The notes beneath the pieces were generated by a model. It had not been told where the DNA came from. It saw only the letters and a list, made by a program, of their open reading frames with translations, and did no database searches. The translations under genes and the position numbers were made by a program. A stretch of DNA of 34,607 nucleotides, from positions 1-34,607 of the IMG/VR virus record IMGVR_UViG_3300020417_000017. One strand, 5' to 3'. Below are positions 1-29,421 of the stretch, piece after piece. This DNA is from a virus. Numbering within the stretch: position 1 is the first letter of the stretch; every line of letters starts with the position of its first letter.

Positions 1-3000
1 CTAGTGCCTCCTGATATTACATCTACTGAGTTGGTAGTAAATGCACCAGTGTGTTTGCTTATGTGTACAATAGTTGATGTTCCATCTGTGTAAACATTTT
101 CAACTTTACCTGTTGCACCTGAATTTGCTTGACTAATTGTTTCGCCTAATTTAAATGGTGTACCTGCATTTGTAATTGTTGCATTGATTTGGAAAGTTGG
201 ATTGTTTCCTTTTAATCTGATCACTGCTCCACTACCCGGAGATGTCACACCGCTTCTGTTAATTGTAATGTCGCTTGGTTCTGCAAAAAATCCTGATCCA
301 CCTGATGTTAAGTTGATACCAGCAATACCACCCTTGTCACTAGTTGCAGTACCACCCGATGTGTAAGCTGTAAAGCCAGTTGTGTCTGTTCCTTTTAATT
401 CAAATGTGTTTGCTGTTTTGTTTGCAACTTCGTATGAATTATTATTAAGCTGAGTCATTCCTGAAACACTCGTGATAGTAACTATGTCACCGTTTTCAAA
501 TGTGTGTCCTGTTGATGTAGCTACACCTGGATTTGCTTGAGTTACGTTTGTAATTGAATGCGTGACATTATTAATTGAGGCTACTTTACCCACTCCTGAT
601 GATCCGCCTGCACCCGATACACTAACTTCATCGTCAATCATGTATCTTGTACCAGCTGTCGTAACAACAAACTCTTGTATGCTACTTGCAATATTGGCTA
701 CAATAACTTCAGCATTCGAACCACCAAAGTCTGAAAAGTTAATTGTTTTTACTATTGATTGATCTGTTAACGACAATTCAAATAATTTTGATCCGTATGT
801 TGTTGAAGTGATAGTTGAGCTACCTGAATTTTTATGATCTGGCATCACTAACTCGATAGTTGATGCGTTTGCTGTCAACAGTTTAGTTGTTTCTTTCATT
901 GAAACCGTTAGTGGAGAGTTTGATGTGATACCTTCTATACCTTGTGCAATTTGTCTAGATCTAAATACATTCCAATCATTATTAATATCATTAGCTACCC
1001 AGTACGTCTTACCAGCTGTGATATTAGTACTCGCATAATTGTTAGCATAATGATTAGATAAATCTGTATTTGAATACACTTGGTAATCAGTATCATTTAA
1101 ATGAACATAACCAGCTGTTGGCATTTCAAATTTTTCTGTACGTGTTGGCCATAAAACAGTTCGTTGTATGTCACCTGTTGGTTTCTTAACCCATCTAGTT
1201 GTATCGTCAATATCAATTGTAATGATATTATCTGTTTTAATATCTTCAGTTACTGTGTTATTAACTGTTGGTAAGAAATTAATAATTTGTGGATCGGTTT
1301 TGATCTCTTCGTTTGATAATTTAACTTCTATTGATTGGTTAATTGCTGTTCCACCAAACTCAGCTACTTTTACAGCATAGTATTCATACAAGTTAATATC
1401 TTGTCTTTCGCTGATAACATCTGTTCTTAACAATCTGTCAATTGAGTTCTTAGTACCTTTTTGTCTTACAAATCCTTGATAGAACTTAACTTGATTTTCA
1501 TCAACGATTTCTAAGTTTTCTAAATGCGATCTATTTTGGTAACCAATTGTGTGTAAACCTGCATTATTTAATTCTTCGTTACTAATTGTTTTATCAACAT
1601 CTAAATAATTTTGTATGTCTTTTGCAGATGAATCAAAGTTAGAAATTAATCCATCTGTAGTAATGATGTGACCATTTGCTTCTAACTTACCTTTCCAATC
1701 AGTACTTCTTAATACAGATTGTTTTAATCTTGCTTGTCTAATTGCCAACGTTGGATCATATAAAACATCATCAAAAGATGTTTTGTTATCAAATACTGTA
1801 ATGTGTTCTAATTCTCTTGCATATAGATTTACAAAATATATTGGCACATTGTCATCTTGTGTAATTGTAACTTGTCTATCCTGTCTTGTAACTGTGGTTG
1901 TTTTCGGATCAATTGCATTACCTGATTTGTCTAGTATAGCATACGTACTTCCCACAACATCTTCCACATTAGATACTACTCCCGACAATGGTTCAAATAC
2001 TATCTGACTTGCCGCTGGTGAAATTGCAATAATATTGTTTGTTGCCCATCCACCCAAGCTCCAGAATAAAAATTCTTTAGCACCGTATAACCAGTTGTAT
2101 GTTTCTCCTATCTGATTGTTTACTACATCAAACTTCCAACCCTGTGATTCTAAATATCTACCATAGTTAATCATGAAGTCAAAAACTTGTTGTATGTTTT
2201 CAAATTCATGTCCATATTCATAATCTCTTGTTTCATCTTTAATTACGGTTTGGTAATATGTTGCTGACGCTCCACCTATCATTGGCACCCCACCAACTGT
2301 TTGGAAATTACTTGCAACAAATGTTCCTGTAGTAACGTGTGATTTTATAACTTTATAAATTGTACCTTCATATCTGATATAGTTGCCAATGTTTAATGTT
2401 TGGTTTGGAATATAATTTCCTACATTCATATCAACTCCACCGACTTGTATTGGTACTGACACACCATTTGGATCACTTACTGTTGTTCTAAAGAATCCTT
2501 TGGCAATATCGTAACCAAATACTCTGTAACCGTTTGTTGACTTTTCAACAATTACAGCAGAATATGATGTACTTTGTGTTGCTGTACTTGAATGCAAGAA
2601 TGTATTAACATTATTATTTGGTATAAAGATACTTGTTCTAGATGACGTAGGTGAATATGATTCCGCCTGAACTTTATAGCTACCAAAGTCAATGTATGAT
2701 CCTTGTTTGTGTGCTAACTGTGGCTGTACATTTCTAATTCTACCACCATATATTTCTTTGACATTTTTATTTGTTAACAACAATCTTTCTGAAACATAGT
2801 GCTGATAACCATAACCAACGATAACATTTGATAAAGAATCGTTTTCTCTATGTACGTATACTTCATTGTTTGCTCTCTTACCAGAATTTTTACTATATCT
2901 TTGTTCTTTAGCTACTATACTATAATCAACGTTTAATGTATCAAACATCAACTCAGAGAATTGTGCCGGCTTCATAATGTATAAAGCTGAAACAAGTGCA

Positions 3001-6000
3001 AAACTGTACGAGCTGTTTATGTAGAATGATAATTCTGCTGGAGCAATATCACCTATCTTCCATGATTTTTTTGCTTCAGCTGGTAATGGATCTTGTGTGA
3101 CTAGTCCAATATCCTTAGGACTTCTTAATAATTCGTTACTATCAACAGGAACGTAATTACTGAATCCATCGTGTCTGTAAATGTTATTTTTATCTGTATA
3201 AGACTTATCGTTAAAGTTTGCTCTAGAGCCTGATCTAATAATACCTTTTTCAATATCGTTAATTAGTTTGGCTCTTTGAGCTGTATATTTCCATGAATAA
3301 GTTCCGTCCCACCATTGTGGTTTCTGTGAGAAGCCTAGCATTTCCCATGGATGAGTATGTGGTTTATGTGTACCGTAAAACTTTTTGTAAATTCCTCTCC
3401 AGTGGCCGGGTGCATCGTCACCTGAAATATCTTTCACCGAACTCCAATTCCATGTTTTCCAATCTGCGGAATTGTATGTTGTATTATCTCTCCACTCTAC
3501 CCCGTTGAATACTGCCCAACGATAAGTGTGAGATCTAATAACTTCGTTGTATTCTTGATACGCATAATCTTTCTTATTAAAGTAATTGCTTACAGTATCC
3601 ATGTATGATAATGGAGCAACATAATCAGGATCGATGAATCTATTTTCAGCATCATTGTAAATTCTTTTCTCAAGTTCTAACAATGCTCTATCTCTAGCAT
3701 CTCCATATTTTAAAACAAGTGATCCATCATGTCCTTGAATGAATGTTTTTGAACCAACTGAATATCCTGGGTCTGTTATTTCTTGTGGAATATATATTTG
3801 TGTCATACCAAGTTTTGATGGAGTAGCTGGTATCCAGCTTGGTTGTTTCTCACCAAAATAATCTATCGTAATTACATCAGCAATATCAGGTTTGGTATCA
3901 CCTATGAATACAATTCTTGTACCTGATGAATTATCAATAACATAATCTTGATTCATTAACATCAAGCTATTATTTTTATATACGTAAAGTGATTTAGTAT
4001 CTTTTTCACTAGTTGGGTTGAATGTGTCTGAAATATCTAAACCAGGCTCTCCAACTAATGTTAGTATATCTTGGTAGCTTTGAATGTAACTACTCTGCGA
4101 TGATGTTGTCCATGTCTTATTAGACTTTGTTATTGTTACGTTGCTTGTTGTTTTAGTATCACCGTATGTCATCATTAAACTGTATGCCCAGTTGTCGACT
4201 AGTCTTTTATTTCTGTTTAGTTCAACCATTACAGTATCAACTAATTTTGCATCTGTCCAAGTTGAAATATCATTATTTCTATCAATTTCTAATACCTTGG
4301 TTAAAAATTTGTTTTTAAATCTAACGTAATCATCATGTGCAAATCTAGTAGCTTTGATAATATCAACGTCATCACTGTTAATGTGTGATAACAATTTCAT
4401 CATAGGTGCGTCATGTTGTAATATCGTTTCAGCTTTTGTTAAATCTTTTTTAGTATCTCTATAAGAGTTATTTCCTAAAGCAATACCAACTAAATCTTTT
4501 TGATGTTTGATACATGAGCTACAGTGGTCAAGTAAATCACCATAATCATATGTTGCAACATCTAAGTTCAATCCATTGTTGCTTAAATTTTTTGGTGCTT
4601 CATAATATGCTCTTGTGTAGTTTTTATCAATATCATTTGAAACATATTTTACAACAATGTAATCATTGACTGCTAAATCTGAATTAAATTTAATAAACTG
4701 ACCTTGAGTTATTGTGAAATCTGTAGTTAATTTTTTCTCAACATTATTAACTGTCACGTCAACTAATGAATCTGATGCAACAATTGATTCTAAATCAAAA
4801 TTATTTTTGAATGAAGTATCTGTTACCTCAAACTCTTGCACTAGTCTTTGTGAAGATTTATCGCTAACTGGCATCCATTCATTGTAATAATTAATAGTCG
4901 TTGCTTGATCAACCGTTGCGGCGTGATGGTTTTCAATTACAACTTTACCACCCATGCCAGAATGTACATGACAATAGTAATATAATGTACCTGGTGTATT
5001 TGCATCTGGCGTAAATTCTATTTTTCTTTTAGATGCCGTATTATACTTGTTGCTTTTGAATACTGCTTCGGTAACTTCAATATCATCATGGAAGTATTTT
5101 ACATTCGTGCTGTAAGCACTACCACTAGCATGAGTACCATTTTCTGTTGTACTTAAAAGGAAAGGATGATACCCACCAGAGTATCCTGTTGTTACTAATG
5201 AACTATCGTTCAAATCAAATATGTATTTGTTTCCACGTTTTAAAATAATTGTTTGTTGTTTAGTGTTATCAATATAAAATTTATTACCACTTGATGGATT
5301 AACAGTAACATCTAATGTTATTGTTTCTTGTATGATATTTTTGTATCCATACTGTTTAAAATATTTAAAACCTGTTGGTCCTTGTGTTTCACTTTGCAAA
5401 TAGTTTTCAAAGTTGATTTCACTAACACTTGTATAATTGCTGTATGAAAGTGGAAAACCTAAATCACTATCGTTTGTTCCGCTTCCTACTTTGTAACCAA
5501 ATATTTTATTTCCTGCAAATGTTGATGATGAGTATTCAACAGTATCATCAAGTGTTTTGCCTTTTGTGTCATACAAGTTAAACAGTGGTGGACTATTAAT
5601 ACTCGACTTCTGTTGTGACTCTGCCCATTCGTAACCAGTCCAGTAAAATTCTTTACCAGCATTTACTGAACCAAGTTTGACTGTAACTTTACTTTCGTCT
5701 TTTATAGTAATACCGCTTACTTTGGTTAACTTAATTGACGTACCCACACCACTAACTTGCCATATCGAACTTGACACATCAAAATCAACCCCTGTTATGT
5801 CCCAACCAATGTCACCACCTGTTAGGCCTGATGTTGTTGTAAGATCGCCATCATCTTCAACCGGTGTTGAAGGATCATTATCACTGTCGTGATCCCATGG
5901 ATCTGCTCCGTCCCAATTGACAAAACTAGTTTGGAAATTTGGATTAACAAATAATATTCGTTGGCCATCTAATAAAGTGATACCATCTATCACGTATTGT

Positions 6001-7301
6001 GCGTTGCTTTCAACAGTATCTTTTGTATCTGTTGTAGCAAGTACATCAACAGTAGCTGAATGTTCTTTACCATATTTGTATAATTCAATATCTTTGTTAA
6101 ATTCTAAAATAGGTTTTGCACCTTTTCTATTGGTGTCTAATTCAAATGCTGACTCTTGAAATATGTTTATACTATCAAAATAGTAATCATCCCAGCCTCT
6201 GACATCATCAGTGACAGTATCAAATGGATGAAATTTTTCTACTTCTTCTGTGATAGTTCTGTAATTCGTGATAACGTCTTTGTGTACCCAACCGTTTGTT
6301 CTTGACCATGGATTCTTATCTCTACATCCTCTATGGCAAGTGATGTAGTCTGGGTTGGCAATAGACGGAACAGTATCCCATCTCTCTGCATCAAATCCAT
6401 TTACGGTACTTGTCACACCAGGTGTATCAGAACTATCCCATTCAAGGAATCTTGTATCTAAAAATATTTCTGTCTCATCACTAGTTTCAACAAACTCAAT
6501 ACCTGCTTCGGATCCTACTCCTTCAATGAAATATTTTTTATCTTTGTATGCTGATTCAGTTAAGAAACTATCTGAAAAGTTTATAAGCATACCTGAACTG
6601 AAAACTACATTGTTAGGAGATGTATATGTTTTCAGTCCAACTATGTTAGTCGGCGTAATTCTATGTGAAACTGTTACAACATCACCCGCCGCCATTGTGA
6701 TTGATCCAGAAGAAAAGTCTAACTGTAGTCCGGTTGTTGTAAAGTCTGTTGTAGGAGAACCGTTATATTGAACGACGTCTGTTGCTCCGATTGGATATGT
6801 TAGTTCAAATAAAGATTGTGCCGCTTTGGCTGTGAATGATTCCACAGTACCAGTAATGGTAATAGATGGAACACTTAAATCTAAGCTAGGATACCAATAG
6901 TAATTTTCATAGTTAATAAATTTATCGTAATCAATCGGTGCGTTAAATGTGTAATATTTTTGATCAAACAATCTATTTTGATTGTTTACTTTTCCGTTTT
7001 CAGTCTGTATAAAATTTAATGCTTCATCATAAAATGTTGCATCAACAGTTAATAAGTTGTCAGGATCTCTAATAATAGCCGCGGGCTCTAATTGATAATT
7101 TTGTCTTGCTTTTGAACTCTCAGGTTTATAATTGTCTTTGGTTGTAACATAGTTTACACCATACTTTCTACCAATCCATTCGGTAGTTTTTTCACTTTCT
7201 GGTTTAGAAAAAAGTTGTTCAACAGTACCATCAAAAAAGTTTCTCAACTTATTTGTTTGTAAAAACTCAGGTAACTTGTTTATAGTTTTATTATCAGACA
7301 T
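1..7301 (-). CDS. Giant virion structural protein, baseplate/tail associated (C-terminus beyond window)
   Basis: The minus frame is open from an ATG at 7301 to the left edge, giving 2433 visible residues (N-terminus MSDNKTINKLPEFLQTNKLR). The ATG overlaps the gp6 stop as TAATG, so translation is probably coupled. The protein is rich in Thr, Ser, Asn and Tyr with many short beta-type segments, as in large marine T4-like tail proteins. Two sub-regions stand out. Around residues 712-783 there is a cupredoxin-like pattern (H712, then C777-x2-H780-x2-M783). Near residues 2266-2319 a segment beginning HTFENGDIVTI and ending YTSGGTA resembles the short E1_FCCH-type repeat seen in phage tail proteins. 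No catalytic domain is obvious. The place after gp25-gp6 suggests a peripheral baseplate or fibre-network role. The structural assignment is fairly safe; the exact role is unknown. Confidence 0.8.
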   Translation of the reverse strand, partial: MSDNKTINKLPEFLQTNKLRNFFDGTVEQLFSKPESEKTTEWIGRKYGVNYVTTKDNYKPESSKARQNYQLEPAAIIRDPDNLLTVDATFYDEALNFIQTENGKVNNQNRLFDQKYYTFNAPIDYDKFINYENYYWYPSLDLSVPSITITGTVESFTAKAAQSLFELTYPIGATDVVQYNGSPTTDFTTTGLQLDFSSGSITMAAGDVVTVSHRITPTNIVGLKTYTSPNNVVFSSGMLINFSDSFLTESAYKDKKYFIEGVGSEAGIEFVETSDETEIFLDTRFLEWDSSDTPGVTSTVNGFDAERWDTVPSIANPDYITCHRGCRDKNPWSRTNGWVHKDVITNYRTITEEVEKFHPFDTVTDDVRGWDDYYFDSINIFQESAFELDTNRKGAKPILEFNKDIELYKYGKEHSATVDVLATTDTKDTVESNAQYVIDGITLLDGQRILFVNPNFQTSFVNWDGADPWDHDSDNDPSTPVEDDGDLTTTSGLTGGDIGWDITGVDFDVSSSIWQVSGVGTSIKLTKVSGITIKDESKVTVKLGSVNAGKEFYWTGYEWAESQQKSSINSPPLFNLYDTKGKTLDDTVEYSSSTFAGNKIFGYKVGSGTNDSDLGFPLSYSNYTSVSEINFENYLQSETQGPTGFKYFKQYGYKNIIQETITLDVTVNPSSGNKFYIDNTKQQTIILKRGNKYIFDLNDSSLVTTGYSGGYHPFLLSTTENGTHASGSAYSTNVKYFHDDIEVTEAVFKSNKYNTASKRKIEFTPDANTPGTLYYYCHVHSGMGGKVVIENHHAATVDQATTINYYNEWMPVSDKSSQRLVQEFEVTDTSFKNNFDLESIVASDSLVDVTVNNVEKKLTTDFTITQGQFIKFNSDLAVNDYIVVKYVSNDIDKNYTRAYYEAPKNLSNNGLNLDVATYDYGDLLDHCSSCIKHQKDLVGIALGNNSYRDTKKDLTKAETILQHDAPMMKLLSHINSDDVDIIKATRFAHDDYVRFKNKFLTKVLEIDRNNDISTWTDAKLVDTVMVELNRNKRLVDNWAYSLMMTYGDTKTTSNVTITKSNKTWTTSSQSSYIQSYQDILTLVGEPGLDISDTFNPTSEKDTKSLYVYKNNSLMLMNQDYVIDNSSGTRIVFIGDTKPDIADVITIDYFGEKQPSWIPATPSKLGMTQIYIPQEITDPGYSVGSKTFIQGHDGSLVLKYGDARDRALLELEKRIYNDAENRFIDPDYVAPLSYMDTVSNYFNKKDYAYQEYNEVIRSHTYRWAVFNGVEWRDNTTYNSADWKTWNWSSVKDISGDDAPGHWRGIYKKFYGTHKPHTHPWEMLGFSQKPQWWDGTYSWKYTAQRAKLINDIEKGIIRSGSRANFNDKSYTDKNNIYRHDGFSNYVPVDSNELLRSPKDIGLVTQDPLPAEAKKSWKIGDIAPAELSFYINSSYSFALVSALYIMKPAQFSELMFDTLNVDYSIVAKEQRYSKNSGKRANNEVYVHRENDSLSNVIVGYGYQHYVSERLLLTNKNVKEIYGGRIRNVQPQLAHKQGSYIDFGSYKVQAESYSPTSSRTSIFIPNNNVNTFLHSSTATQSTSYSAVIVEKSTNGYRVFGYDIAKGFFRTTVSDPNGVSVPIQVGGVDMNVGNYIPNQTLNIGNYIRYEGTIYKVIKSHVTTGTFVASNFQTVGGVPMIGGASATYYQTVIKDETRDYEYGHEFENIQQVFDFMINYGRYLESQGWKFDVVNNQIGETYNWLYGAKEFLFWSLGGWATNNIIAISPAASQIVFEPLSGVVSNVEDVVGSTYAILDKSGNAIDPKTTTVTRQDRQVTITQDDNVPIYFVNLYARELEHITVFDNKTSFDDVLYDPTLAIRQARLKQSVLRSTDWKGKLEANGHIITTDGLISNFDSSAKDIQNYLDVDKTISNEELNNAGLHTIGYQNRSHLENLEIVDENQVKFYQGFVRQKGTKNSIDRLLRTDVISERQDINLYEYYAVKVAEFGGTAINQSIEVKLSNEEIKTDPQIINFLPTVNNTVTEDIKTDNIITIDIDDTTRWVKKPTGDIQRTVLWPTRTEKFEMPTAGYVHLNDTDYQVYSNTDLSNHYANNYASTNITAGKTYWVANDINNDWNVFRSRQIAQGIEGITSNSPLTVSMKETTKLLTANASTIELVMPDHKNSGSSTITSTTYGSKLFELSLTDQSIVKTINFSDFGGSNAEVIVANIASSIQEFVVTTAGTRYMIDDEVSVSGAGGSSGVGKVASINNVTHSITNVTQANPGVATSTGHTFENGDIVTITSVSGMTQLNNNSYEVANKTANTFELKGTDTTGFTAYTSGGTATSDKGGIAGINLTSGGSGFFAEPSDITINRSGVTSPGSGAVIRLKGNNPTFQINATITNAGTPFKLGETISQANSGATGKVENVYTDGTSTIVHISKHTGAFTTNSVDVISGGT

Positions 7302-10300
7302 TAGTAGCCTCCGCCACCGCCGCCACCTGAGCCACTAGATCCACCGCTTGAAACACCTGGACCGGCTCTTAGATTCGCTCCTGTTAAACTTGTTACAATT
7401 TCAACATCGCTAACAGCGGCAGTTGAAAAGAATAGTTCGTTGCTGTCTGCTTTGATTTGGAATAAGTTACCAAAACTTGATTCTGAATCTTTTGGTACTA
7501 TTACCACAGATGAAATCTGAGATGAAAGCTGTGCATGAACGTATGCAGATAATTCTGTGAAGTAAAAAGTATCTCCAAAGTTCCAATTTGAAACATCAAA
7601 ATATTCATTGATAGCATTAATTACTTCTGTTTTAATTTGGTTATCTGTAAATGTTGCACCTGGAATTTTTACCACTCTAAAAGTTGCCTGATAGGCTGTG
7701 TTGGCAGTTGTTCCAAATAACAATTTAAATTTAGCTGGAGAATAAACAATTTGATCCCCAATAGTTTTGTATTTTTCTAATTCAGTTAAACTGTTTTTCA
7801 ATTCAGCTGATGTAGGTTGTACTGGTAAGTCAGCAACTCCTTTGCCTGAATAGAACCAGTTTAATACATTTGTATAATAAGTTGTTTGTAATATAGTTAA
7901 CTCAACAACATTTGACACACTTGGATCAACTCTTTGTGATCTAGGTGCTGTATGTTTGTATTGAAAGTAGAATGGTTCACTCGTGCTGTATGCTCTACCT
8001 CTGTATGCTTTGTATATTGCACTACCATCTACTCCATATCTTTTTGTAAATTTACTAGCAGTACCATTGTGTAGTTTTACATTGTCTTTATAAAATTGTT
8101 GATCAGTTGTTAAAAATTCTAAACCATTACCAGTCAATGCATTTCTTTGAGTTACACCTGTTGTTAGTTTGTAATATGTGTATCCGTCAGCATCTGTGTA
8201 ATTTACAAAAAATACAAAGTGACTATCACTTATGATATTTTCGTGTGCTACCGGATTGTCAGGCATACCATCGTCATCGGAATCAATATTTGTAATCTTA
8301 ACTTTTTTGGTATCTACATATCCATCTTGTTCCACGAATGCATTAGATAAACTAAATGTGATAGGATCAACAAGTTTTGTTGTACTTGACGGGTTGGATA
8401 ATATTGTGACATCTTTATTGATATCTAATATCTTGATAGTGTCTTTAATAGCTTTACCTGTTTTTGTATCAATGTTTTTATAATCATCGTAGTAGAAAAA
8501 TCTAACATCTTCGAAACTTTCAAAAACATAATCTAATCCTCTAATAGTAAATTCATATTTTGCCGTTGTTGCCGAAGAGGCTGGAGCAATATATGTTGCC
8601 TTGATTAACCAAGATGCATCTTTGCCTAATACTTTAAAACCACCATGCTGTTGGTTGTATTGTACTGAGAAGTCAGATGTTTTATCTAAATAATCTTCTG
8701 AAATAGTGTACCATGATTCTGTTTTAGTCGATGTGTCTCTGTAATGATAACCAATACCAAAATTAACTCCTGATTCCATTAACGATTGAATCGCTGATTC
8801 TTCACTTATTGTGAGTGTAGATCTCAAATTAGGAAGTACTTTTCTAACTTTCAATCCTGACGTTATTGCTGTATCCAATGTTATTGACCCTGTTGTGTCA
8901 GTTGTAATTACTGATCCATCATTTTTAATACTCATCACAGTTGCCCATTTAACAGTAGTAGGTGATGAATAATCATTAACAAATTCTAATTTTGTGCCTG
9001 GTCTAATAAAACCAAGTTTTTCATCTGAAGAATTTGGATTATTATAAACTGTAATTGCTTGTGAAGGAGCATCATTACCGCCAATATAAAAGTATCCAGT
9101 TTCACTTTCTCCTGCTGTAGGATAAGGTTTCCATAATACCCTGTTCACGGATGTTAGATCCATTTCAAATTGATCTGAATCATGATGTGTTTCAACTGAT
9201 TTTTTATAATCATCAAAATAAAAATTTTGTAATTGTATTTTTTTCAATAATGGTGCTAACTTATTTTGTATAATATAACTATAGCTAGAAGTATCAATTA
9301 CCGTACCTGTTACTTCTTCTGTAGTTAATGTGAAGTCTGGTGACTTATACACTATAGCATCTTCTCCAACTACATTTACACTCTTAACAGTACCAGTTGG
9401 ATCGTTTACATCTAAGTATCGTGAATGACCAATGTGTGTTCTGTTCATAGCTTTAATTTTTTGGATAGTTGTACTTTGTGTTAAAGGAAATATGCTGTAA
9501 TCTTCAGCATTAACCATTCTGTCTTGTGAGTAGAACGCCTGCGGTGCATTGTTTTTAATTGCTGTATTTGTTTCTGTAGCTGATGAATTATCAACGGTAT
9601 AATTTAACGTTAAAGACATTGTAGCTGTAAATGTTTGTCCAGCTGAATTTTGATAGTTAAAAGAAACTTCTTCGTTTTGTATTCTGTTTGCTTTTAGTAC
9701 TTGTCCTTTACCAGATGATTTTCTAAAGTAAATTCTAAAATTTCCTTTTGGTGCATTACCAAAATTACCATCACTAAATTGTACTGTGATATTATCGTTG
9801 TTTCTAGAATTAACTGTATAAATGTTTCTAGTTGCCAAAGCTAATGAATTGTAAATTGTATTTTGTCCGTTGAGTGCTGGAACTGACGTCCATTTTTCTA
9901 ATGGTGTACCCATTGTTCCTACTTTTTGTACCCATACGTCTGTGTCATTAATATCACTAACATCAATATCAACTTGTCTGTTTGGTAATGGATTTACAAA
10001 TTCATGATCTTGATACTGTAAAGTTCCTTCTTTAAAGTAAACAAAGAATCCTGTGTTAACAGAATTAAAACCTTGATTGTCATTTCTATAAATCAAATTA
10101 AATGCTTCAGAAGAGTCTGGCGCTCTTTCATAAAAATAATTATCTGGATGAATATCTACTTTCACAACATCAATCGATGTTGACACTCCATCTACAGAAG
10201 TTTGAAAATTTTTAACAACACTCTGGTCACTTGTTGATGACGTTGCATAAATTTCACTTGCAACAGAACCTATCGTTGCAGATTTGGTTGGATTACCAAA

Positions 10301-10807
10301 TTGGTTTGTAGTATTGAATAATGTATTACAGACAGTTAACCATTGGTCATACCAATTAGCATTGTTTGGATCATTCCATGAAATATTTGTATTAGAAAGA
10401 TCAGCACCATCTGAATCTGTAATTGGTTCTGTGGTTCTAATTTTTGTAAGTTTTAATAAACCTCTCGCTGGAGTATTTCTTCTAGTTTTGTAATTGATTA
10501 GTTTTGCTAATCTGATAATCGAATCTCTTCTTTCAGCTGTATCTAAAAAATTCTCTCTAGCATTCAAGTCTGTTCTAAATGCAAGTGACTGACCTAGGTA
10601 AGATAATAAATCTATTATTGCTATGAATTCACTTGATTGAATATAGTCATTGAAATCTTCTGGATAATTTACTTGAATGTAATTAAGCATGGCTGATCTG
10701 ATAGTATCAAAATCATATGCTGTGAAGTTTGCTTGAGAGAAACTTCTATAAATTGTTTTCCAATCTTCTGCTGAGAATAAATTGTTCTGTCTAATTATTT
10801 GACTCAT
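7301..10807 (-). CDS. gp6: Baseplate wedge protein gp6
   Basis: 1168 residues, about 1.8 times T4 gp6 (660), a size typical of marine T4-like phages. The N-terminal 120 residues carry the family signature: a start MSQIIRQNNLF, then segments like SSEFIAIIDLLSYLGQSLAF and ENFLDTAERRDSIIRLAKL. In T4, gp6 dimers form the inner wedge ring of the baseplate beside gp25, gp53 and gp7; the role here is inferred from that. The extreme C-terminus is a Ser/Gly tail (about 15 residues ending GGGGGGGY), unusual for a baseplate protein. The start overlaps the gp25 stop by one base (TAATG), and its own stop overlaps the next gene in the same way, so gp25, gp6 and the giant protein form one operon. Confidence 0.92.
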   Translation of the reverse strand: MSQIIRQNNLFSAEDWKTIYRSFSQANFTAYDFDTIRSAMLNYIQVNYPEDFNDYIQSSEFIAIIDLLSYLGQSLAFRTDLNARENFLDTAERRDSIIRLAKLINYKTRRNTPARGLLKLTKIRTTEPITDSDGADLSNTNISWNDPNNANWYDQWLTVCNTLFNTTNQFGNPTKSATIGSVASEIYATSSTSDQSVVKNFQTSVDGVSTSIDVVKVDIHPDNYFYERAPDSSEAFNLIYRNDNQGFNSVNTGFFVYFKEGTLQYQDHEFVNPLPNRQVDIDVSDINDTDVWVQKVGTMGTPLEKWTSVPALNGQNTIYNSLALATRNIYTVNSRNNDNITVQFSDGNFGNAPKGNFRIYFRKSSGKGQVLKANRIQNEEVSFNYQNSAGQTFTATMSLTLNYTVDNSSATETNTAIKNNAPQAFYSQDRMVNAEDYSIFPLTQSTTIQKIKAMNRTHIGHSRYLDVNDPTGTVKSVNVVGEDAIVYKSPDFTLTTEEVTGTVIDTSSYSYIIQNKLAPLLKKIQLQNFYFDDYKKSVETHHDSDQFEMDLTSVNRVLWKPYPTAGESETGYFYIGGNDAPSQAITVYNNPNSSDEKLGFIRPGTKLEFVNDYSSPTTVKWATVMSIKNDGSVITTDTTGSITLDTAITSGLKVRKVLPNLRSTLTISEESAIQSLMESGVNFGIGYHYRDTSTKTESWYTISEDYLDKTSDFSVQYNQQHGGFKVLGKDASWLIKATYIAPASSATTAKYEFTIRGLDYVFESFEDVRFFYYDDYKNIDTKTGKAIKDTIKILDINKDVTILSNPSSTTKLVDPITFSLSNAFVEQDGYVDTKKVKITNIDSDDDGMPDNPVAHENIISDSHFVFFVNYTDADGYTYYKLTTGVTQRNALTGNGLEFLTTDQQFYKDNVKLHNGTASKFTKRYGVDGSAIYKAYRGRAYSTSEPFYFQYKHTAPRSQRVDPSVSNVVELTILQTTYYTNVLNWFYSGKGVADLPVQPTSAELKNSLTELEKYKTIGDQIVYSPAKFKLLFGTTANTAYQATFRVVKIPGATFTDNQIKTEVINAINEYFDVSNWNFGDTFYFTELSAYVHAQLSSQISSVVIVPKDSESSFGNLFQIKADSNELFFSTAAVSDVEIVTSLTGANLRAGPGVSSGGSSGSGGGGGGGY

Positions 10808-11235
10808 TATAATGTTTCTCTTTCAAAGTTAACTTGCATTGACGCTTGTTGGTTGAAGGGTAATACATTTAGTTGTATGTCTACTCTTATACCATTTCCA
10901 ACATCGTCTAAAATTAAATCTATTAATTGTACTCTTGGATCTGATGCAATTATAGTTTTGCAATCTTCAACTAGATCTTCTTTAGTACTTTCATCAATTG
11001 GTTCATAAAGCAAGTCCCAAATTATTGAGCCAAATTCCGGATCCATCACTCTTTCACCTTTTCTGGTGTAAAAATGATTCATTAAATCTTGTTTGATCAA
11101 ATCAACATCATATAATTGATTAGATTTTACCCCTGCTACCGATGAAAATCCTCTGTAAACTCTACCAGAGACACGAGAATCTGCCACCGTAGCAGAAGTG
11201 TTATTAGCAGTTGATGTTGAATATGTTGTTGCCAT
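10807..11235 (-). CDS. gp25: Baseplate wedge subunit gp25
   Basis: 142 residues, close to T4 gp25 (132). The conserved core includes DLMNHFYTRKGERVMDPEFG followed by SIIWDLLYEP, characteristic of the gp25/lysozyme-like W baseplate family. In T4 and in type VI secretion (TssE) this protein forms the wedge core that nucleates the sheath. The ATG is preceded by AAGGAT at a normal distance, and a TATAAATA late promoter lies 16 nt upstream of the ATG, making this the first gene of the late operon gp25-gp6-giant protein. It ends in a TAATG overlap with gp6. Confidence 0.93.
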   Translation of the reverse strand: MATTYSTSTANNTSATVADSRVSGRVYRGFSSVAGVKSNQLYDVDLIKQDLMNHFYTRKGERVMDPEFGSIIWDLLYEPIDESTKEDLVEDCKTIIASDPRVQLIDLILDDVGNGIRVDIQLNVLPFNQQASMQVNFERETL

Positions 11236-11347: not shown

Positions 11348-11362
11348 ATGGGCAACAATTAA
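11348..11362 (+). other. Four-codon minicistron (MGNN) overlapping the ClpP-like start
   Basis: ATG GGC AAC AAT TAA, whose stop overlaps the protease ATG as TAATG, the same junction used between the baseplate genes. No clear Shine-Dalgarno site lies just before the protease ATG, so reinitiation after this minicistron is plausible. Whether it is translated is not known. Confidence 0.35.
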
Positions 11363-11922
11363 TGAAAAAATTTGAAAATTTTAGTGCTGATGATAAAATC
11401 GAGTCGTTGCTACTTGATAACGATATTCATTATCTATCAGGCGAAATTACAGATGAAAATATAGCTCGTGCTATCAAATGGATAGTGACTGCTAACTTGA
11501 ACAAAAAACCAAAACGTACTTTAAAGTTGTATATCAATTCAACTGGTGGTGATTTATACGAGTCGTTTGCATTGATTGATGTTATGAAAAATAGTTACCA
11601 CAATATTAGTACTATCGGAGTTGGTGCTATAATGAGTGCCGCTTTTTTAATATTTGCCTGTGGTAAACATGGTGAAAGATATATTGGACAAAACACAGGT
11701 ATCATGAATCATCAACATTCAGATACAATGGAATCCAAAATGCATGATATGAAATCACAGATGCAGGAAAATCAATACTGTGAAGAAAGATGTTTTAGAA
11801 TACTGAAAGAAGCAACTGGAAAAACAATGGCTTCGGTTAAGAAAAAATTAGATTCTCCTAGTGATCAATACTTTACGGCAAAACAATTGATTGACCTTGG
11901 CATAGCTGATCATATATTATAA
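11362..11922 (+). CDS. ClpP-like serine protease
   Basis: 186 residues, the size of mature bacterial ClpP. Family motifs are clear: LYINSTGG (oxyanion/handle region), VGAIMSAAFLI with the probable nucleophile Ser92, GIMNHQHS with His117, and SDQYFTAKQLIDLGIADHIL with Asp168. The Ser-to-His spacing of 25 equals that of E. coli ClpP (97/122), so the catalytic triad looks complete. No ATPase partner is encoded nearby, so it may act alone, use a host unfoldase, or process phage structural proteins. It sits between two baseplate operons under its own late promoter, which favours a morphogenesis role; this is inference. ClpP-like genes are known in marine T4-like phages. Confidence 0.88.
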   Translation: MKKFENFSADDKIESLLLDNDIHYLSGEITDENIARAIKWIVTANLNKKPKRTLKLYINSTGGDLYESFALIDVMKNSYHNISTIGVGAIMSAAFLIFACGKHGERYIGQNTGIMNHQHSDTMESKMHDMKSQMQENQYCEERCFRILKEATGKTMASVKKKLDSPSDQYFTAKQLIDLGIADHIL

Positions 11923-22812: not shown

Positions 22813-22849
22813 TGGGTTCATGCACTGAGTAAATATGTGTATGAACCCA
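22813..22849 (+). promoter_or_regulatory. 13-bp hairpin over the oxygenase start codon
   Basis: TGGGTTCATGCAC pairs with GTGTATGAACCCA (one G-U) around an 11-nt loop. The annotated ATG at 22835 straddles loop and stem, and the alternative ATG at 22841 lies fully in the 3' arm. No T run follows, so it is not a standard terminator. It may hide the start region or bind a protein. Confidence 0.7.
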
Positions 22850-23494
22850 AACACAGAAAAAGATATTTGGGAATGGTTAGATCAAGACAATACTATTCCG
22901 TACTTACAACTAGATATTAATGATATTCCTTATAAAGAAATTTATAAAGAAGCATTAGCAGTTAAAGATCAAGCTATTCCACATAGAGATTATGGCCAAG
23001 GAGGTGGATGGTCTAGTCTTTGTTTACATGGTATTAGTTCTACTAAAACCAATGCTTGGGAACAGTACGAAGAAAACAAAGGTTTAACAGAAGATCAAAT
23101 TGATTATAAATGGACAGATATTGCTGATCAATGTCCTATTACTACTGAATATTTTAAAAATAAATTTCCATATAGACAATATAAAAGACTAAGATTTATG
23201 TGGCTCGAGCCAGGAGGAAAAATTAGTTTACATAGAGATAGTGAACAACGAACATTCTCACCGGTTAATATAGCAATTAATAATCCAATTGGTTGTGATT
23301 TTAATTTTAAAAACAAAGGCACGGTACCATTCAAACCAGGAGTGGCATTTTTAATCGACGTTGGACAATATCATGAAGTTGTTAATAACTCCGATGAAGT
23401 CAGATTACATATTATTGCACATGGTAAAAGACATTATAAAAAATGGATTGAAATATTAGAAAGAAGTTGGGAGAAATTTGGTTATGAAGATTAA
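22835..23494 (+). CDS. Aspartyl/asparaginyl beta-hydroxylase-like 2OG-Fe(II) oxygenase
   Basis: 219 residues. The double-stranded beta-helix core shows H133-x-D135 (SLHRDSEQ), H180 (GQYHEVVNN) and R190 (EVRLHIIAHG), the expected Fe ligands and 2-oxoglutarate anchor. The surrounding LRFMWLEPGGKISLHRD and VPFKPGVAFLI pattern is that of the Asp/Asn hydroxylase group. The substrate is unknown; a protein side chain or a small peptide is the family precedent. The next gene is a paralogue with an extra N-terminal domain. Translation may be limited by the hairpin over its start; ATG 22841 is a possible alternative start. Confidence 0.78.
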   Translation: MCMNPNTEKDIWEWLDQDNTIPYLQLDINDIPYKEIYKEALAVKDQAIPHRDYGQGGGWSSLCLHGISSTKTNAWEQYEENKGLTEDQIDYKWTDIADQCPITTEYFKNKFPYRQYKRLRFMWLEPGGKISLHRDSEQRTFSPVNIAINNPIGCDFNFKNKGTVPFKPGVAFLIDVGQYHEVVNNSDEVRLHIIAHGKRHYKKWIEILERSWEKFGYED

Positions 23495-24557
23495 TGTTGG
23501 AATAGTAGGTCACATTGAAGGCCCAAGATTAAGTCAGGCCATAGCAAATTTATTAAAAGACGAAAAAGGATTTCAGTTTGACTTTCTAGAAATGCCTTAT
23601 AACAAAAATTCTGTAGCAAAATTTGTTGAGGGGAAGGACTTGGTGTTTATTTGTAACCCAGGAGAATCTGCTATCAACAAATATGTAAGGTCTTATTGTC
23701 AAAAACAACAAATTGATTTCTTTATTCCTAACGAAATAGACAATAGAAGAATGCCTACATTAGAAGCAAAGTATGGTTTGAGTCCTGTGTTTCAATTAAT
23801 TTTAGGATATAACAATTCGGATTATATCAATAGTAAATTAGTAGAAGACTTGACTGCAGAAAAAATGTTAAAATTATGGAAAGACGCTTATATCGAGAGG
23901 CCATACAATTTTCCAAAAAAAGATAAAGATTTGTGGAATTGGTTTGAAAGTAATGACTGCCCATATCCGTGGCTACAGTTAGATTTAAAAGTTCCGCATG
24001 AGAAAATGTACATGGAAGCTATCAATGTAAAAAACAAATCAATCATGCACAGGTCAGATGAAGCAGGTGGTACTTGGAATGCAACAACATTATTTGGTTT
24101 GGCTTCTGATATCACATCTGGTTATGACTATGTTGGCGTTGACAAAACAAAGTATCCAACTAAACCAAAACCGGCATGGACCGAACTAGCAGACGAATGT
24201 CCGATAACGAAAAGATTTTTCATGGAAGAATTTCCTTTAAAAAATTATTCTAGAATTAGATTTTCATGGATTGAGCCAGGTGGGTATATTTTACCTCATC
24301 AAGATGCTGAAAATAGATGTATGGGTTTTAATCTAGCTATCAATAATCCAAAAGGTGCTGGCGTCTATGTTAAAGATTGGGGTATGATTCCTTATGAACC
24401 TGGTACAGCTTTTATATGGAATGTGGGTACAATACATTGGGTACACAATGATTCAAACAAAGCAAGATTACATATGATCATACATGGTGATCCGGATAAA
24501 GAAAAATTAGAATTATTAATGAAAAAAAGCTGGAACAAATACGGCTGGAATAAATAG
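23484..24557 (+). CDS. Second hydroxylase-like oxygenase with an extra N-terminal domain
   Basis: 357 residues from the ATG at 23484; a TTG at 23478 is also in frame. The start overlaps the previous stop by 11 nt, so the pair is coupled. The C-terminal 220 residues are paralogous to the upstream protein, sharing WIEPGGYILPHQDAE, LAINNPKG and the tail KKSWNKYGW versus LERSWEKFGY. Predicted Fe/2OG residues are H272, D274, H318 and R328. The N-terminal 135 residues begin with a Rossmann-like strand-loop (INVGIVGHIEGPRLSQAIAN) and are not in the first protein; their role is unknown. A division into substrate-recognition domain plus catalytic domain is inference. Confidence 0.75.
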   Translation: MKINVGIVGHIEGPRLSQAIANLLKDEKGFQFDFLEMPYNKNSVAKFVEGKDLVFICNPGESAINKYVRSYCQKQQIDFFIPNEIDNRRMPTLEAKYGLSPVFQLILGYNNSDYINSKLVEDLTAEKMLKLWKDAYIERPYNFPKKDKDLWNWFESNDCPYPWLQLDLKVPHEKMYMEAINVKNKSIMHRSDEAGGTWNATTLFGLASDITSGYDYVGVDKTKYPTKPKPAWTELADECPITKRFFMEEFPLKNYSRIRFSWIEPGGYILPHQDAENRCMGFNLAINNPKGAGVYVKDWGMIPYEPGTAFIWNVGTIHWVHNDSNKARLHMIIHGDPDKEKLELLMKKSWNKYGWNK

Positions 24558-27963: not shown

Positions 27964-29421
27964 TTATTTATTGCTTGGAAAAAATTTAAAATTAGGATCC
28001 TTTTCTTTGTTTTCTTTCCATGATTTATAAGATCCTGGAAATTTATATTTGTTTTTCGTGAACACAGTTTCTTCGTCGAGCATATCAAACATTTCTAAAA
28101 AACGTGGATCTAGTTTTGTGATGTCACAATTTTTAAAGTTGTTTTGGGCTACTGCCATTACTGCCCATGCATAGTGGGCCTCCTCATCATACTTGTGATC
28201 TTGAAATACCTTTATTAGTTTATCAATACTGTATTCTGGTGACCCTGGGTAGTTCCAATCTTCTGCTTTCAAACCGGCTTTAGTCATTTCATCTACAAAC
28301 TTTTTGTTTCTTCTATTAAGTGTTTTCTTTAATGTTTCTAATTCATACAAAATATCATCTATGAACTTACTGGGTATTGCATTAATAGTTGAGTGAAGCT
28401 CTATTACAGGTATTATCATAATATCTCCCCACAGGTTATCTTTACCTTTCTCTCCAACAAGACGAACTCTTTCACGAAACCAAATATCTAACAATTCAGA
28501 CAACCAATCTGTCAATGTGAAAGCCATGTGAGTCATTATACAAGTGTTTATGGAAAGTGAATATCCTGGTTTGGTCAGATACTTCTTCATAAAAGTTAAT
28601 AAATTTTTTTTAACGACCTTCCATTTAGCCGGGTGTCTGACATATTCATATGTTTTTCCTGCACCATCAATACTAGCAGTTATACTGACTTCTTTGAAAT
28701 GAGAAAACATTTCATAAGTTTTGTTAAGATTGGTGAAATTTGTTGTGACTTTTAGTCTAATATCTTTAGCATAATCGTTATCAATCAAATGTTTCAAAGT
28801 TCTTTGCACACCAGCATTGATAGTAGGTTCGCCGCCAAGTAATTTTATTTGTAACAATCCTTGATGTAAAAGATGTTCATTCACAAAATGTTCTATTTCA
28901 TGATATCTATCTTTATTTTTTTTAATATATTTTAAAGATCCTGCCCATGTGTCTTTACCTATACCCCATGTTTCATTGTCTCCAAAGTCTTCGATTAATG
29001 TGCTGTTACCAGGACTACATTGTATACATGACAAGTTACATAAATTGTCTGGTCTGTAATCTAAATACACTGGTTTTTTATGTGTGGTATTTCCATGTAC
29101 AACATCAAAGTCTTTTACATCCACTGGTATTGTTCTAAACATATCTATATCTGATTGTAGTCCACGGTCTTCGTGCCACTTGCAACCAGAACATCCTTTG
29201 GGCCATTCACCATCAAGCATTTGTTGTCTGATATCTTGGGCGTATTTGCTAGTCCAAAAATCTTCCGGAGCTCCGTCTTTGTGTACTTTGTAATATGGTT
29301 GGTCGTCATCCTCCCACGCACAACAAAAACCCAAATTGCCTCTCAGCCCAAAGTAATAAGCTGATGTGAATGGTGCGTTGCAGATAGGTTTATCTATGTT
29401 TTTGTTTAATTTCTTAGTCAT
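27964..29421 (-). CDS. Radical SAM enzyme with N-terminal auxiliary-cluster-like cysteines
   Basis: 485 residues. The radical SAM motif is C128-x3-C132-x2-C135 (NLCNLSCIQCSP), with GGEPT as the SAM-binding motif and a barrel continuing with RLKVTTNFTNLN and ITASIDG. Before the core lie C14, C33, C34 and a CSGC pair (C77, C80), arranged like a SPASM/twitch auxiliary iron-sulphur domain but at the N-terminus. Marine T4-like phages are known to carry such twitch-type radical SAM proteins; their substrates are unknown. It is followed directly by a possible methyltransferase, so modification of a peptide, nucleotide or glycan is likely. Only a degenerate late-like box (AATAAATA) is seen upstream, 6 nt before the ATG. 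Confidence 0.88.
   Translation of the reverse strand: MTKKLNKNIDKPICNAPFTSAYYFGLRGNLGFCCAWEDDDQPYYKVHKDGAPEDFWTSKYAQDIRQQMLDGEWPKGCSGCKWHEDRGLQSDIDMFRTIPVDVKDFDVVHGNTTHKKPVYLDYRPDNLCNLSCIQCSPGNSTLIEDFGDNETWGIGKDTWAGSLKYIKKNKDRYHEIEHFVNEHLLHQGLLQIKLLGGEPTINAGVQRTLKHLIDNDYAKDIRLKVTTNFTNLNKTYEMFSHFKEVSITASIDGAGKTYEYVRHPAKWKVVKKNLLTFMKKYLTKPGYSLSINTCIMTHMAFTLTDWLSELLDIWFRERVRLVGEKGKDNLWGDIMIIPVIELHSTINAIPSKFIDDILYELETLKKTLNRRNKKFVDEMTKAGLKAEDWNYPGSPEYSIDKLIKVFQDHKYDEEAHYAWAVMAVAQNNFKNCDITKLDPRFLEMFDMLDEETVFTKNKYKFPGSYKSWKENKEKDPNFKFFPSNK

Follow-up and report, generated by a model that had tools for sequence, protein, structure and literature searches.

A predicted cupredoxin-fold insert with a type 1 copper-like ligand set in tail proteins of marine phages

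Introduction

The Ig-like domains of phage virions are beta-sandwich modules that many tail proteins carry as appendages or insertions, and they have no metal site. Metal is found in phage tails as iron: HxH sites have been described in tail fibres (T4 gp37, R22Y), marine phages included, and are the nearest published precedent for metal in tails (PMC11705849). A search of the open-licence literature returned no report of a virion or tail cupredoxin. Cupredoxins differ in the spacing of the loop that carries the Cys, His and Met ligands, which reads C-x4-H-x4-M in rusticyanin, C-x2-H-x4-M in plastocyanin (1m9w) and C-x2-H-x2-M in amicyanin (1aac; CTPHPFM).

Here we analyse a 34.6-kb IMG/VR virus record (IMGVR_UViG_3300020417_000017), which we refer to at its full length of 34,607 nucleotides as the window. 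We consider it fairly probable that residues 659-790 of a giant protein encoded in the window are a cupredoxin with an amicyanin-type copper site, which would make the domain a copper-capturing baseplate insert with a structural or host-contact role.

Results

The giant protein (3..7301, minus strand) is a virion (baseplate) protein of 2433 residues, encoded by an open ORF that runs past the edge of the window; its match in PHROG is family 10938 (virion structural protein; E 4.5e-286). Upstream of it lie a gp6-like baseplate wedge protein (7301..10807, minus strand; PHROG 10646 and 219, baseplate wedge subunit) and a gp25-like baseplate wedge protein (10807..11235, minus strand; PHROG 43, baseplate wedge subunit). 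The gene order gp25-gp6-giant is the same in the window and in the jumbo phages PA5oct, Atu_ph07, PBECO4 and Phosso. A 937-residue query covering the giant protein after the domain aligned to the PA5oct protein with 31% identity at 98% coverage, and PA5oct gp355, the homologue of the core of the giant protein, is annotated as detected by MS. From the matches to PHROG 10938 and PA5oct gp355, the ORF can be assigned as a gp6-adjacent baseplate protein of the jumbo-phage kind; the position of its gene corresponds to that of T4 gp7. No solved structure was matched by sequence for the scaffold of the giant protein.

Several other features were observed in the window. Residues 2262-2323 of the giant protein (333-518, minus strand) match the E1_FCCH domain (PF16190, E 3.7e-14) as well as PHROG 584, major tail protein, so that a fold with a eukaryotic name is found in a phage tail protein. 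Residues 321-329 (6315-6341, minus strand) read TCHRGCRDK, which includes C322 and C326, and residues 927-930 form another C-x2-C. A ClpP-like protease gene (11362-11922, plus strand; PF00574, E 5.3e-32) is located inside the baseplate gene region. Two adjoining Asp/Asn beta-hydroxylase-like genes (PF05118) occupy 22835-24557 (plus strand), with a called overlap of 17 bases, and a radical SAM-like protein is encoded at 27964-29421 (minus strand; PHROG 14086, E 2.1e-14; PF04055 under cut-off).

The domain at residues 659-790 (4932..5327, minus strand) was characterized by AlphaFold2 modelling followed by fold comparison with Foldseek and VIA. The model of residues 659-809, built from a 40-sequence alignment, has a pLDDT of 89.5 and a pTM of 0.82. 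Rusticyanin is the top Foldseek match in the PDB (E 9.7e-5), followed by AcoP, two-domain laccases, plastocyanin and amicyanin. VIA gives rusticyanin a Z-score of 9.7 (2.5 Å over 104 residues) and domains of copper nitrite reductase (CuNIR) and laccase Z-scores of ~9, and nearly all of the listed structural neighbours of the model are cupredoxin domains. The best PDB sequence matches of the domain are plastocyanins (E 0.008). We therefore place residues 659-790, as modelled, in the cupredoxin fold superfamily, with a predicted Greek-key beta-sandwich. In BFVD, the model also matches proteins named 'Beta-sandwich' (A0A481YVH3, A0A481Z6J5 and A0A481Z7Q7, Marseillevirus and Pithovirus-like records; E ~1e-6).

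The motif lies at 4953-5168 on the minus strand, which reads HPFLLSTTENGT...YYYCHVHSGM and corresponds to residues 712-783 of the giant ORF. The predicted ligands are H712 (5166..5168), just N-terminal to strand 714-717; C777 (4971..4973), which terminates strand 772-777; H780 (4962..4964); and the axial M783 (4953..4955), all on the minus strand. Counted from the start of the model (residue = 658 + n), the first His, H54, comes just before strand 56-59, the Cys, C119, is the last residue of strand 114-119, and the loop ahead of strand 127-132 holds H122 and M125; this is the cupredoxin arrangement. At the end of the alignment, model residue 132 pairs with rusticyanin residue 155, so M125 (M783) would fall on rusticyanin Met148 if the last strand is ungapped; residue 148 is named in the rusticyanin structure titles Met148Gln and Met148Leu. 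By topology and by this end-anchored numbering, we infer that the four residues occupy the places of the type 1 copper ligands in the model. The initial annotation had called for a structure prediction and comparison with plastocyanin; cupredoxins proved to be the nearest folds, and, judged from topology and end-anchored numbering, a fold in which the ligands do not converge was not seen. Another conserved His, H724 (5130..5132, minus strand), in a DGTHxGG loop, is conserved in the subtype of the window domain, being invariant in A2, and is replaced by Leu or a gap in several site-bearing wedge, connector and fibre copies.

The giant protein contains a single C-x2-H-x2-M, a pattern found in 0.16% of 5000 shuffled versions. 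Chance origin of the motif is ruled out by these shuffles, by its conservation and by searches blind to it. The Cys residues of the protein are at positions 322, 326, 777, 927 and 930, and since C777 is the only one in the domain, an intradomain disulfide role for it is excluded as well. The initial annotation had recognized the type 1 copper ligand set His...C-x2-H-x2-M, and this reading held, as all four residues are present, in order, and conserved and lost together. It had placed the site at 4953-5168; the residues map there as given, but the functional unit is larger, spanning approximately residues 659-790 (4932-5327). Its likeness to plastocyanin extends to the cupredoxin ligand set and not to the loop spacing, C-x2-H-x2-M being that of amicyanin, whereas plastocyanin has C-x2-H-x4-M.

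Scores against curated models of known families are low. PF00127 (Copper-bind) reached 13.4-14.0 bits against a curated cut-off of 21.2, amicyanin TIGR02657 15.8 bits against 110.2, and plastocyanin TIGR02656 17.2 bits against 87.85. Assignment to plastocyanin was ruled out by the C-x2-H-x2-M spacing and by these scores. Profile-profile alignment to an amicyanin sequence and to bacterial PF00127 proteins aligned only the C-terminal Cys-His-Met half. The domain is thus outside PF00127, TIGR02656 and TIGR02657 by score, and type 1 copper-like by its predicted fold and ligands.

In the giant protein, the domain is an insert (4881..5342, minus strand, between KYFKQYGY and NEWMPVSDKSSQ), because the proteins of PA5oct, Atu_ph07, PBECO4 and Phosso are without it. 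Alignment blocks (blastp) against PA5oct stop at residue 653 and resume at residue 805, with eight residues between them in PA5oct, and the flanks KYFKQYGY and NEWMPVSDKSSQRLVQEF are near each other in all four jumbo-phage proteins, which have neither CxxHxxM nor a profile match to the domain. The giant protein of the saltern Salicola phage SCTP-2 (L176) has a stretch, IYINDEKLPNLILKENIQYKFDFSD..., aligned at the same insertion point. This stretch was not recovered by the domain profile search; from the alignment, it is possibly a site-less version or remnant of the domain that has lost all four ligands. A 242-kb IMG/VR contig has the domain within a 4061-residue open frame of the same giant-protein family.

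The domain is widespread among marine phages. By tblastn, the phage records with a match number 245 for the domain and 44 for a short-type relative. The named matches are cyanophages, phages of Prochlorococcus, Synechococcus, Pelagibacter (SAR11) and Methylophilales (OM43), and marine single-cell viruses; the named hosts are all marine. YCxxHxGMGG segments, which the initial annotation had noted as occurring in marine phage structural proteins, were recovered in these sequence searches. The copies are located in baseplate wedge proteins, gp9 connectors, myo- and podophage tail fibres and other structural proteins, and one phage may have several of them: S-SSM5 has at least four, including one site-bearing and one site-less wedge copy. 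A plasmid search with the domain gave no match. A scan of genome contigs with one narrow pattern found a single relative, and because the MAG contig carrying it encodes the same phage giant protein, that scan identified no cellular family.

None of the four ligands varies among 40 sequences that are 39-86% identical to the window domain. Because the CxxHxxM segment had been part of the first searches, it was left out of two additional scans. With the N-terminal part as query, CxxHxxM was found in 76 of 80 loci and HP in all 80. A scan with only the residues preceding the first His (80 loci) found the His together with CxxHxxM in 77; the other three are one CxxHxxxM, one replacement of His by Asp with Met by Leu, and one partial copy at a contig end. 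Complete relatives chosen on the pre-His sequence keep the site in 78 cases out of 79. A dN/dS of ~0.19 between the window domain and one relative (L014) indicates purifying selection.

From all loci, a non-redundant set of 82 copies less than 75% identical to each other was compiled. Each ligand is retained in 88-94% of these copies (H712 in 94%). Four ligands are present in 71 copies, three in two copies (Met to Gln), two in none, and none or one in nine, whereas independent loss would give about 24 copies with three ligands and 0.3 with none or one; the permutation p of 5e-5 overstates independence because the site-less copies are related. The site has been lost in about four lineages, namely second copies in cyanophage baseplate wedge proteins, L172/L174, PSS2 and SCTP-2, the last outside the 82. 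A metal site predicts an all-or-none ligand pattern of this kind, which recurs in about four lineages. Met to Gln (in L209, P-RSM6, and in L133) is the sole replacement seen with the other three ligands in place, and it is a known type 1 copper variation, stellacyanin likewise having an axial Gln.

Four cyanophage baseplate wedge proteins (L013, L210, L211 and L216) have two domain copies each, one with the full site and one without, which looks like duplication followed by loss. A site-less copy was modelled by the same method and is also a predicted beta-sandwich (pLDDT 86.4), with a best cupredoxin Z-score of 6.2, compared with 9.7 for the window domain, and a Foldseek list of mostly Ig domains.

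The site-less copies bear on the alternative that the domain is a purely structural beta-sandwich of cupredoxin descent, in which the motif is kept only for packing, by His-Cys hydrogen bonding within the loop, and the virion has no metal. Because some lineages keep the domain and lose the site, the scaffold alone can serve: such copies are still recognisable as the same domain in about four lineages, the modelled one has a confidence similar to that of the window domain, and SCTP-2 is apparently site-less at the same place in the same protein. We nevertheless regard a metal-free role as unlikely, since the ligands vanish as a set and are otherwise strongly retained in divergent copies, since the single swap that is tolerated is one known from type 1 copper sites, and since the site-less model is far less cupredoxin-like than that of the window domain.

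Discussion

The type 1 copper-like ligand set is present, ordered and co-conserved (with Met or Gln as axial residue) in the sequences and in the predicted fold, and the view that fold and site form a functional unit is well supported. We infer metal binding, the identity of the metal as copper, exposure on the virion and a mechanical or contact role. Copper is the probable metal because the Met is conserved, with Gln as its only alternative; a conserved thioether ligand is typical of copper sites and atypical of zinc. Cupredoxin sites accept Zn and other ions in vitro, and Zn, Ag, Hg or Ni could thus be taken up in place of copper, but given this axial position we consider it very unlikely that one of them is the natural metal.

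Our best guess is a copper-stapled, outward-facing tail module. In this model, the domain would capture a copper ion, presumably once the virion meets copper, and the bound metal would hold together the loop with the first His and the loop with Cys, His and Met. The stapled loops would give a rigid, resistant beta-sandwich, which may face outward from the baseplate and may work in stability and structure or in host contact, as the Ig-like domains of other phages do.

The site might instead be redox-active in infection, exchanging electrons or docking on a copper-handling or electron-transfer protein of the host. The ligand set is the full set of the electron-transfer type, and picocyanobacteria, which use plastocyanin, are among the hosts of the phages found. 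We nonetheless hold this to be quite improbable, because no partner, conserved redox neighbour or enzymatic domain was identified and because the domain is also found in baseplate proteins and is not confined to fibre tips. A precedent for metal in tails does exist in the T4 tail-fibre iron and the associated Trojan Horse idea (PMC11705849). We speculate on a copper counterpart of that idea, in which the tails of many ocean phages, those of SAR11, OM43 and picocyanobacteria, carry blue-copper centres that are used in entry, through copper-dependent binding to a surface protein of the host or a redox-triggered change of the tail; this reading is doubtful.

Because the domain recurs in many marine phage tail proteins, their particles are predicted to carry copper. 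Copper binding by the domain would make copper-carrying particles of abundant marine phages, which would bear on phage-host encounter and entry and on the trace-metal chemistry of seawater. It would also provide a handle, testable at the bench by spectroscopy, ICP-MS and Cys-to-Ser mutants, on a widespread tail module that has so far been annotated as 'virion structural protein', 'baseplate wedge subunit' or 'hypothetical'.

The nearest solved fold to the domain is that of rusticyanin (2cal, 1rcy), with His, Cys, His and Met ligands in both; rusticyanin is a free periplasmic protein and is 19-20% identical to the domain over the aligned part. Amicyanin is closest in the ligand loop, having the same spacing and GKVV after the motif (CTPHPFMRGKVVV vs CHVHSGMGGKVVI), and like the domain it has a single Cys and an upstream His in a post-strand loop. 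However, the stretch from His to Cys is 38-39 residues long in amicyanin and 65 in the domain, and amicyanin is a free periplasmic electron carrier, whereas the domain is located within a baseplate protein. The Pfam family with matches in the largest number of members of the set (10 of 40, best E 0.00078) is the plant At5g54830-like domain (PF25489), with matches that cover the CxxHxxM end of the domain and are below the cut-off of that family. The phage Ig-like domains resemble the insert as beta-sandwich modules of tail proteins, but the fold matches of the window domain are cupredoxins and not Ig domains. Finally, the HxH sites of phage tails bind iron through paired His residues in trimeric fibres, whereas the domain has a predicted mononuclear Cys/His2/Met site within one beta-sandwich; copper bound there would be a second metal in phage tails besides the iron already known.
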